A DNA stretch of 64,000 nt. Origin: Prochlorococcus sp. AG-402-M15. Lineage in GTDB: Bacteria; Cyanobacteriota; Cyanobacteriia; PCC-6307; Cyanobiaceae. Below are positions 10,481 through 13,078 of the stretch, one piece after another (the stretch's first letter is position 1; each line of letters begins with the position of its first letter). Below the pieces are notes generated by a model. The model was not told where the DNA came from. It was given only the letters and a program-made list of their open reading frames with translations, and ran no database searches. The position numbers and the translations under genes are program-made. Location: NCBI GenBank assembly GCA_003216615.1, contig QCIP01000008.1, positions 1 through 64,000 on the forward strand. Direction: 5' to 3'.

Positions 10481-11638
10481 TTAAGAACGAACCTGAACAG
10501 GCATTACTAGATAAGTAAAAGAATTTAGATTATCTTCTGGTACAAAAACAGCAGGAGTAGTTGCAAGATTACACTTTAAAAGTACATTTTCAGAAGGAAT
10601 AACTTTTAAACCTTCTAAAAGATATCTAACGTTAAAAGCAATATCAAAATTTTCTCCAGAGTAGGAGACAGGTATTGATTCATTAGCGTTTCCGATATCT
10701 TGTGCATCTGCACTTATCGAAGCTAATTCAGTATTATCCAGTTTAATCTTGACAACACTACTCTGCTGATCAGCTACAACAGCAATTCTTTCTAGTGCAT
10801 CAATTAATTTTTTAGTATTAAAATTAAAAATATTAGAAAAAGTATCAGGGATTAGTTGTGAATAGTTTGGATAAGTACCTTCAAGAGTTCTTGTTGTAAT
10901 TATTTGATTAGAGGAAATAAAAACTACCTGACCTTTATCATAAAAAAGTTTTATGGAATTTTCTGAACTTCTCAAAGATACAAGTTTTTCAATTTCTCTT
11001 AATGATCTAGTTGGAATAGTTACTGATAAATCATCTTCATTTGAAAGCAAGTTATCCTTATTTTTAATATTTTCTTCGTTACCAATTAATGCAACTGCCA
11101 ATCTGTGACCATCTGTAGAAGCAGATTCTAAATAATTTTGTTTAAAAGTAAAATTAACACCTGTAAGTAATTGCTTTGAATCATCATTACTACTTGCAAA
11201 AACAGTTGATTTTAAAGCTTTTAAAAAAGAACTAGGGTTAATATCTAAAGAAGTGCCACTTTCAACAAATGGCAGATTAGGATAATCGTCAGATGGTATA
11301 CCCTTAAGATTAAAAGAACCTCTATCACTTTTTATTAAAATATTATCTAAATTCTCATCTACTTCTAGAGAAACAGGTGTTTCATTAGGTAATTTATTTA
11401 CTATTTCAGATAAAAGTTTCGAAGGTATCGTAATTGCCCCACTATTTTTAACAGTTCCATCAAAAGAGGTTTGAATTCCTAAATTAAGATCAAATCCTGT
11501 CAAACTAATTTTATTTGTCCCTTGGTCAGCTGTTAAAAGTATATTTGCAAGAATTGGATGAGTTGGTCTTGAAGCAACTGCTTTACTAACTAGTTGAATA
11601 GCATTATTTAACTCATTTTGATTACAAATAATTTCCAT
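10481..11638 (-). CDS. dnaN: DNA polymerase III beta sliding clamp
   Basis: Ring-shaped processivity clamp of the replicase. The 385-residue protein has the three-domain DnaN layout, starting MEIICNQNELNNAIQLVSKAV and containing SRPTHPILANILL, the STDGHRLAVA motif of domain 2 and the C-terminal end TYLVMPVQVR that helps form the client-peptide pocket. It is read away from the 336-base gap identified here as oriC. No dnaA gene adjoins it, unlike the usual bacterial dnaA-dnaN pair. The next gene starts 1 base after its stop. Confidence 0.97.
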   Translation of the reverse strand: MEIICNQNELNNAIQLVSKAVASRPTHPILANILLTADQGTNKISLTGFDLNLGIQTSFDGTVKNSGAITIPSKLLSEIVNKLPNETPVSLEVDENLDNILIKSDRGSFNLKGIPSDDYPNLPFVESGTSLDINPSSFLKALKSTVFASSNDDSKQLLTGVNFTFKQNYLESASTDGHRLAVALIGNEENIKNKDNLLSNEDDLSVTIPTRSLREIEKLVSLRSSENSIKLFYDKGQVVFISSNQIITTRTLEGTYPNYSQLIPDTFSNIFNFNTKKLIDALERIAVVADQQSSVVKIKLDNTELASISADAQDIGNANESIPVSYSGENFDIAFNVRYLLEGLKVIPSENVLLKCNLATTPAVFVPEDNLNSFTYLVMPVQVRS

Positions 11639-11685
11639 CGGAATTTGGAACTTTTTACAAACACAATATACTTTTTTCGCAAATT

Positions 11686-11747
11686 AAATTCAATAAGAAT
11701 TTTAATCTTTTTTTTGTTATAAAAAATAAATAATAAATTTAAAAAAT
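11686..11747. other. AT-rich putative DNA unwinding element
   Basis: A run almost without G or C between the dnaN start and the TAG triplets, including stretches such as AAAAAATAAATAATAAATTT (11721-11740). In bacterial origins the region melted first is AT-rich and lies directly beyond the DnaA-trio array, as here. Boundaries are approximate. Confidence 0.6.
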
Positions 11748-11762
11748 TAGTAGTAGTAGTAG
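11748..11762 (+). repeat. Five tandem TAG triplets (candidate DnaA-trio array)
   Basis: TAGTAGTAGTAGTAG ends one base before the DnaA box at 11764. The B. subtilis DnaA-trio is a series of 3'-GAT-5' (5'-TAG-3') triplets on one strand between a DnaA box and the unwinding region, onto which DnaA loads as a single-strand filament. Orientation relative to the box and the AT-rich tract matches here. Confidence 0.7.
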
Positions 11763-11763
11763 T

Positions 11764-11772
11764 TGTGGAAAT
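11764..11772 (-). other. DnaA box 1
   Basis: TGTGGAAAT on the plus strand, which is ATTTCCACA on the minus strand; one mismatch from the cyanobacterial consensus TTTTCCACA. It is next to the TAG triplet array, the position from which a DnaA filament would extend leftward. Confidence 0.65.
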
Positions 11773-11825
11773 TGTTGAATTCTTAATTAAAAACCATACT
11801 TACTTAATTTATGAATTTTTTAATA

Positions 11826-11834
11826 TGTGGAAAA
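11826..11834 (-). other. DnaA box 2 (perfect cyanobacterial consensus)
   Basis: TGTGGAAAA on the plus strand is the exact complement of TTTTCCACA, the DnaA box described for cyanobacteria. It has the same orientation as box 1, 62 bases away start to start. Confidence 0.7.
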
Positions 11835-11842
11835 ACTTTTTT

Positions 11843-11895
11843 ATTTGTTGAATATTTTTTGTTTTATTAAAAAAATTTAAATTTATTCAACAAAT
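11843..11895. repeat. 11-base inverted repeat in the origin region
   Basis: ATTTGTTGAAT at 11843-11853 is the exact inverse of ATTCAACAAAT at 11885-11895, with a 31-base A/T-rich spacer. The core TTGTTGAAT also occurs as a direct copy at 11772-11780, next to DnaA box 1. Three copies of a nine-base word in about 125 bases suggest a protein-binding site rather than a terminator; the binder is unknown. Confidence 0.5.
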
Positions 11896-11945
11896 GAGAT
11901 TACTTTTTATCTATTTTTAAACAGAATAGGATTAATATTTAGTCG

Positions 11946-11954
11946 ATTTCCACA
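11946..11954 (+). other. DnaA box 3
   Basis: ATTTCCACA on the plus strand, 20 bases from the thrC stop; same one-mismatch variant as box 1 but in the opposite orientation. It marks the right side of the origin cluster. Confidence 0.6.
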
Positions 11955-11974
11955 GACACTAATTTTTTTGGATT

Positions 11975-13078
11975 TTAATATCCTAGAATTTTGGTTATAT
12001 TTTTTAACGAAGGTTCAATATTTTTCCTAAAAACAGCATCATTGTTTTTGATGGCACAATCAGGGTCTTTTAATCCATTCCCGGTAAGAACACAAACAAT
12101 AGTAGATTCTTTTTGGATTCTATTTTTATTTTTAATGAGTCCAGCAACCGATGCTGCGCTTGCAGGCTCACAAAAAACTCCTTCCTTGGCAAGAATTTTA
12201 TAAGCATTAATTATTTCTTCATCTGTAACTGACTGAAAGTCTCCTTTACTTTCCTTTTTTACTTTTTTTGCTTTTTCTCGATTAACAGGATTTCCAATTC
12301 TTATAGCTGTTGCAATTGTCTCTGGATTTTTAACTATTATATTTTGTACTAAAGGAGCAGAGCCTTCAGATTGAAAGCCCATCATAATTGGTAATTTTAA
12401 ATTTCTTTTCATTTTTGAATATTCTTTAAAACCCATCCAATAAGCAGTTATATTTCCTGCATTGCCCATTGGAATACAAAGCCAATCAGGTGCAATACCT
12501 AAATCATCAACAATTTCAAAAGCGGCTGTTTTTTGGCCTTGAATTCGATATGGATTAACTGAATTAACTAGCTCTACAGGATGTTCTGAAGATAAATCTC
12601 TTACAATTTCTAAAGCTTTATCAAAGTTTCCATCAATAGAAATTATCTCAGCTCCATACATCAAAGCTTGTGCAAGTTTTCCTTGTGCAACAAATCCTTC
12701 TGGAATTAAAACATAAGGTTTTAGTCCTCCTCTTGACGCATATGCAGCAGCAGCAGCAGAAGTATTTCCAGTACTCGCACAAATTACTGCTTCACGGCCC
12801 TCTTCTTTTGCCTTGCTAATAGCCATAGTCATTCCACGATCTTTAAAAGATCCTGTGGGATTTAGACCATCATATTTTAAAAAAACCTTTGCTCCATTAC
12901 CAATTAAATTGCTAATTGAGTCACTAAAAATTAGTGGTGTATTTCCTTCATTTAGGGAGATGATAGGAGTTTTTTTTGAAACAGGAAGATATTGTTTATA
13001 AGCTTCTATAAGACCTGGCCATTTTTTTTTGCGATAATTGATATTTAGTGTATTCTTGATTTTATTTAATAACACCAT
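11975..13078 (-). CDS. thrC: Threonine synthase
   Basis: PLP enzyme converting O-phosphohomoserine to threonine. Visible are the PLP lysine, Lys79 in [11 protein letters not shown], the phosphate-binding [19 protein letters not shown] stretch, and [11 protein letters not shown] near the C-terminus. At 367 residues it matches the short plant/Bacillus-type class without the long fungal insert. It is the last gene of a leftward group with the DUF1400 protein (6-base gap) and the aarF-like kinase, and it is read toward oriC. Confidence 0.95.

Follow-up and report, generated by a model that had tools for sequence, protein, structure and literature searches.

The opening of origins by DnaA has been worked out mostly in Bacillus subtilis. 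The search rule published for the basal unwinding system (BUS) asks for at least three in-phase triplets with a middle A and the consensus 3'-GAT-5' (DnaA-trios), and allows up to four mismatches in a tandem second DnaA box, which is the commonest BUS arrangement (57%) (PMC8287927). In the B. subtilis structure, the first pocket is formed by DnaA bound to two boxes, and additional protomers continue from there across the trios; the distal box #6 is the most critical BUS element and box #7 is not essential (PMC10721633). Residues N187, I190, I193, R202 and E228 contact or flank the trio bases, and R264 is the arginine finger (PMC10721633, PMC8287927). DnaA of S. elongatus unwinds its cognate BUS in vitro in a box- and trio-dependent manner (PMC8287927). 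Cyanobacterial oriCs are usually adjacent to dnaN and contain TTTTCCACA boxes (PMC6323995, PMC4674748; DoriC), and the origins of Prochlorococcus are flanked by the genes of polymerase III beta and threonine synthase (PMC2836286). Our search of the literature on the DnaA-trio and on cyanobacterial and Prochlorococcus origins found no BUS experiment in Prochlorococcus, and this genus may already be included in the species tables of PMC8287927. Both the BUS as a kind of element and a cyanobacterial BUS acting in vitro are known, and the element described here adds a case.

The window, i.e., the whole stretch of 64,000 nucleotides of Prochlorococcus sp. AG-402-M15 DNA that was analysed, contains an element (Table 1) which we predict, with a probability of about 87% as judged from sequence comparisons, to be the BUS of the chromosome origin. 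The original prediction described five TAG triplets and a DnaA box behind an A/T tract, and these features proved exact on re-reading: TAG x5 occupies positions 11748-11762 and is followed by a single T and by TGTGGAAAT at 11764-11772. Its interpretation as a BUS, in terms of order, polarity and location at oriC, is backed by conservation, by the sequence of DnaA and by the literature, but the picture of a clean five-unit array abutting one box is not. This element is most likely the place where the chromosome starts to open for copying.

Table 1. Features of the putative origin and its flanks, in window coordinates.
Feature	Position	Strand	Basis
Putative oriC, dnaN-thrC intergenic gap	11639..11974	none	336 bp, 18% GC; ORFs, Pfam; flank genes as named in PMC2836286
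dnaN	10481-11638	-	ORF list and Pfam
PALP-family (PLP-dependent) enzyme, consistent with threonine synthase	11975-13078	-	ORF list and Pfam
A/T tract beside the trios, towards dnaN; predicted site of unwinding	11686..11747	none	93.5% A/T; stability ranking
Four conserved DnaA-trios, 5'-TAG-3' x4	11748..11759	+	Genus gap comparison
4-nt spacer, TAGT in the window, source of the fifth TAG	11760..11763	+	Genus gap comparison
Trio-proximal DnaA box ATTTCCACA, box #7-like	11764..11772	-	1 mismatch to TTTTCCACA; 4 nt from trio 4
Distal DnaA box position, abutting the proximal one, box #6-like, AATTCAACA	11773..11781	-	3 mismatches to TTTTCCACA; TGTGGAATT in 71/106 genus gaps
DnaA box TTTTCCACA, exact cyanobacterial consensus	11826..11834	-	Starts 53 nt from the start of the distal box
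Left arm of 12-bp inverted repeat with DnaA-box-like TGTTGAATA	11843..11854	-	
Right arm of this repeat, TATTCAACAAAT, separated from the left arm by a 29-nt loop	11884..11895	+	
thrC-side DnaA box ATTTCCACA, opposite orientation	11946..11954	+	TTTCCACAGACACT in 76/106 genus gaps; 8/106 too short to reach

The gap resembles the cyanobacterial oriCs of DoriC in its gene context, with dnaN adjoining it, and in its exact consensus box, and differs from them in that several of its box-like sites are TTCAACA variants. Its location at the origin is indicated by the clustering of boxes, by the dnaN flank and by a skew switch at dnaN in a complete relative. As the genome under study consists of 26 contigs, skew was sampled as 20 segments of 20 kb in this relative (G041). 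The keto excess was positive in all ten samples of the first half of the G041 chromosome and negative in nine of ten in the second half; GC skew was positive in 8/10 and at or below zero in 6/10, respectively, and where the contig ends meet, beside dnaN, it switched from -0.042 to +0.124. A skew minimum far from the gap had been named in advance as an argument against the BUS interpretation; this was examined in the complete relative only, where the sign changes at dnaN. Within the 64-kb window, the cumulative skew reaches lower values at about 16 kb and 52 kb than at the gap, which we count against the BUS reading; taken by itself, the skew of the window was uninformative.

In the stability ranking, 60-nt stretches less stable than the one at 11692-11751 make up only 0.02% of the 64 kb, and the weakest place of the window (35974) lies outside the gap. 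While a dinucleotide model gives an expectation of 0.0008 TAG x5 arrays per 1.6 Mb, one was found in this genome, the two other TAG x4 sites of which are both inside ORFs. The sequence TTTCCACA occurs three times in the window against 3.31 expected, i.e., without excess, and one-mismatch TTWTNCACA sites number 200 against 239 expected. All three copies of TTTCCACA fall within 191 bases of the 336-bp gap; the unusual point about the boxes is their clustering in the gap, as their number is not in excess.

The window element shares with the B. subtilis BUS the order and polarity of its parts, the 3'-GAT-5' triplets, the trio-reading residues of DnaA, two co-oriented boxes beside the trios and a further box on phased spacing (PMC6669920, PMC8287927, PMC10721633). 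The proximal box has the B. subtilis orientation and lies well inside the 16 bp that the search rule allows between box and trios. The element differs in its AT-rich spacer reading TAG, in its TTTTCCACA consensus, in its weak box at the #6 position and in the location of the dnaA gene on another contig; while the B. subtilis structure engages six trios, four are conserved here, a fifth TAG lying in the spacer. The BUS of S. elongatus belongs to a member of the same phylum. A comparable module of a genome of the class (L154) reads CAG-TAG-TAA-TAG, with the spacer GGGC and two abutting TGTGGAAAA boxes; in contrast to the window, its spacer is GC-rich, both its boxes are perfect and more boxes are found upstream. 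The genome under study contains one match to the DnaA C-terminal domain, and the solved structure that this DnaA matches best (E 7e-123) is 8btg, an entry with seven DnaA chains that we take to be the B. subtilis BUS complex. The protein keeps equivalents of N187, I190, I193, R202 and E228 as well as the arginine finger R264.

In the mechanism that we propose, DnaA would bind to the two abutting boxes at 11764-11781, and its AAA+ domains would assemble leftwards on the plus strand, capturing the TAG triplets from 11759 to 11748. The plus strand would be stretched in this way, the A/T tract 11686-11747 would open on the dnaN side, and the helicase would be loaded there. The box at 11826, about five helical turns off, could supply DnaA, perhaps via a small loop.

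The genus comparison was based on 151 Prochlorococcus genomes searched, of which 119 gave a DnaN match; of the 110 upstream gaps that were read, 107 had sufficient length (nine gaps remained unread, five with dnaN 160 bases or less from the contig start and four with partial dnaN, and three of the 110 were too short). A module of four triplets, a 4-nt spacer and two abutting 9-mer boxes is present in 106 of the 107 gaps, L110 being the single one in which it was not found. The scan presupposed the 4-nt spacer and the abutting boxes, so the constancy means that this single register fits. Counted from the box outwards, TAG occupies the positions of trio 4, 3, 2 and 1 in 106, 104, 97 and 96 of the 106 gaps. 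The first-position 9-mer is TGTGGGAAC in 34 and TGTGGAAAC in 29 of them, and a single form prevails at the second position (Table 1). As the distance from the module to the dnaN start takes 16 values across the genus gaps, the constant inner spacing does not merely reflect a lack of time. A leader block between the module and dnaN is conserved as well, and so, strongly, is the TTTCCACAGACACT block beside thrC (11946-11967), which is longer than a DnaA box. Conservation of the triplets in close relatives, which had been proposed as a test of the BUS interpretation, was thus found; the expectation of a clean five-unit array abutting a single box did not hold, given the composition of the genus module. 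The box noticed at first is the proximal, #7-like one, and the distal box abutting it had been overlooked, as had the fact that the fifth TAG, although present, occupies the conserved 4-nt spacer.

The commonest spacers of the 106 genus gaps are TTCT (30) and TTTT (20), and TAGT is found in the window genome only. On the evidence of these gaps, the conserved array is best described as one of four triplets, with the fifth TAG as a lineage-specific spacer change that the BUS model would not need; this repeat looks private to the lineage. The unchanged total length is as expected from spacer substitutions, although a 3-base gain paired with a loss would look identical. Anywhere in the genome, TAG x5 occurs in five of 266 genus genomes, the window genome included. 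One of these (G407) has it at the origin, where the spacer is still 4 nt long and the additional triplet lies on the far side; for three of the five, no dnaN was found beside the array. Near-identical flanks surround the TAG x6 and x5 arrays of L341/L343 (G143) and L338 (G401), respectively, loci of two genus genomes without a dnaN or dnaA match.

A GC-rich spacer of about 4 bp is a usual trait of the BUS, although the published search rule does not require it. In the genus, its length is retained and its GC content (0.19) is close to the background (0.17), while the values are 0.73 in 31 family loci and 0.88 in 16 class loci with a module score of 20 or more. We count the missing GC-rich spacer against the BUS reading. 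Certain family members (e.g., L129, L135 and L118) combine locally AT-rich DNA with GC-rich spacers, so the loss in the genus cannot be put down to base composition alone. A further, rather unlikely scenario is that the genus dropped a GC-rich clamp, that the spacer freed in this lineage became a working fifth trio and that the proximal box took over the anchoring from the distal one, the BUS being re-registered towards its own box without a clamp. In a Symbiobacteriaceae MAG (L209:1939-1966), a TAG array is likewise followed by a TAGT spacer and then by two abutting TGTGGAAAA boxes. Its dnaN match is on the box side, 1.8 kb away, and because of this placement the locus is weak support for this scenario.

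The alternatives to an intact BUS were weighed against the same data. Possibly, the gap is oriC but its BUS has partly decayed through the weakening of the distal box and the overwriting of the spacer, and opening proceeds mainly via the proximal and upstream boxes. The distal box is TGTTGAATT in the window genome only among the 106 genus gaps, and TGTTGATAA in one other; it qualifies as a tandem second box by the lenient rule only, and its weakness at the position of B. subtilis box #6 is counted against the BUS reading. The private TAGT spacer also fits decay. We nevertheless consider this improbable: the four trios are all intact, as is the 4-nt register, the proximal box is nearer to the consensus than the commonest genus form GTTCCCACA (one vs. 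two mismatches), and motifs of the TGTTGAA type, in which genus origins are enriched, may still be bound by DnaA. TTCAACA/TGTTGAA occurs 193 times in 98 genus gaps against about six expected from mononucleotide shuffles only; the sites of the window (11773, 11846 and 11886) have homologous sites in relatives, and the motifs may represent a second class of DnaA box. For the BUS reading, either TGTTGAATT may still bind DnaA or the anchoring may have shifted to the proximal box.

The element might also be a DnaA-controlled regulatory element of the dnaN promoter instead of an unwinding site, as the trios face dnaN almost invariably in the pattern loci described below and a conserved leader block separates the module from dnaN. 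This is very unlikely and largely rejected, as G283 and G369 have the module near dnaA, at a distance of hundreds of kilobases or more from dnaN, and G328, a member of the same family as G369, has it about 250 kb from each of dnaA and dnaN. We know of no role of in-phase triplets in promoter control. That the array is a functionless trinucleotide microsatellite, to which the purity of the TAG repeats and the three of 266 genus genomes with TAG x5 or x6 without a dnaN match beside it would lend themselves, has a negligible probability; this reading is rejected by the constant four-triplet length and register in 106/107 genus gaps, and comparable modules occur across the class.

Outside the genus, the comparison covered 37 genera of the family (38 loci) and 22 families of the class, each of the latter represented by one locus. 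In 37/38 family loci and in 16 of the 22 other class families, the best module upstream of dnaN outscored every one of 30 shuffles of the same locus. Six class families have no module near dnaN; in two of them (those of G283 and G369), a perfect one is present elsewhere. In the remaining four (G351, G313, G325 and G299), no module was found by the scan or by the pattern with one mismatch or less, though DnaA is present; G299 combines three TAG with a 5-nt spacer and a box-to-box distance of 8 nt, with the 13-nt distance to the distal box kept. A set of 26 genomes chosen partly for lacking a module near dnaN gave pattern matches with one mismatch or less in 15, with two mismatches only in four and none in seven. 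The two-mismatch matches (G389, G351, G297 and G332) were not counted as modules because a reversed control also gave four in 26. No module was found by the pattern in G319, G307, G282 and G323 of this set, though DnaA is present; G389, which alone among the 26 gave no match to the DnaA C-terminal domain, shows no more than a chance-level, two-mismatch match.

A scan of the genome contig collection for the pattern TAGTAGTAG-N4-TGTGGRAAN-TGTGGA returned at least 117 stretches, divided by their record titles into 47 of Prochlorococcus type, 36 of other cyanobacteria and 34 others. The latter, at least 34 in number, come from Clostridia and other Bacillota, Actinobacteria, Chloroflexi and Thermotogae. 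Among the matches listed, dnaN or dnaA was found in 112 of the 117 stretches, and dnaN was on the trio side and reading away in 107/108, with L209 as the sole exception among at least 108 pattern loci with dnaN; the GC content of the non-cyanobacterial spacers, again among the matches listed, is 0.74. One locus of the non-cyanobacterial set, titled Tatlockia (L229), may belong to a misbinned cyanobacterium, its DnaA match (E 1e-158) being as strong as cyanobacterial ones. The pattern was also seen on five contigs of a viral collection (L313-L317), four of which have three or more DnaA boxes within 500 bases and the fifth none. The examined stretches of these contigs gave no match to either dnaA or dnaN, and an ORF of L313 resembles an endolysin. 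Some phages may recruit host DnaA via a BUS-like module.

The next box upstream fits a phased spacing that recurs in other phyla. The best TGTGGAA-like site starts 53-54 nt past the distal box in 92/98 genus gaps, mostly with one mismatch (exact in 7 of the 92); the same distance holds for 15 of the 16 class loci, 14 with exact TGTGGAAAA. The family is looser, with the next box at 52-55 nt in 24 of 31 loci, several with two to four mismatches. In the non-cyanobacterial loci (at least 34), the first box is found at 43-45 (14 loci), 53-55 (8), 63-66 (3), 12 (3), 75 (1) and 94 nt (1), and four have none. A box between 13 and 42 nt was seen in one of at least 115 pattern loci long enough to score. 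The Rayleigh value for 18 distinct label-distance pairs is 0.83, and none of 20,000 uniform 40-80 sets was as high; this statistic takes no account of ancestry and serves as a description. For a distal box to work in B. subtilis, it has to be at least 44 bp away, with one-helix-face phasing for three turns (PMC6669920). Phased distances of 43-45, 53-56 and 63-67 nt to the next box may be a general rule of bacterial origins; we found no comparative study of box phasing in the literature, as judged by titles and the beginnings of abstracts.

Between the exact upstream box and thrC, the window contains a 12-bp inverted repeat, ATTTGTTGAATA / TATTCAACAAAT, at 11843-11895. A clear inverted repeat is present in 49 of 99 genus gaps, with a loop of 29 nt in 47 and of 28 nt in two. 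Compared with one loop and its reverse complement, the loop is forward in 36 of the 49, inverted in ten and ambiguous in three; the inverted form is exact in L014, near-exact in L020 and weak in some, and looks like a small inversion inside oriC.

The variation within the genus supplies natural mutants of the element, in which the triplets, the register and the box spacing are fixed while the composition of the spacer drifts to the background; single genus genomes alter the distal box or add a triplet. The natural box distances of 43, 54 and 65 nt fit the helical phasing known from B. subtilis mutagenesis. It seems that the element needs its spacing and the triplets nearest to the box, and that it can lose the GC-rich spacer.
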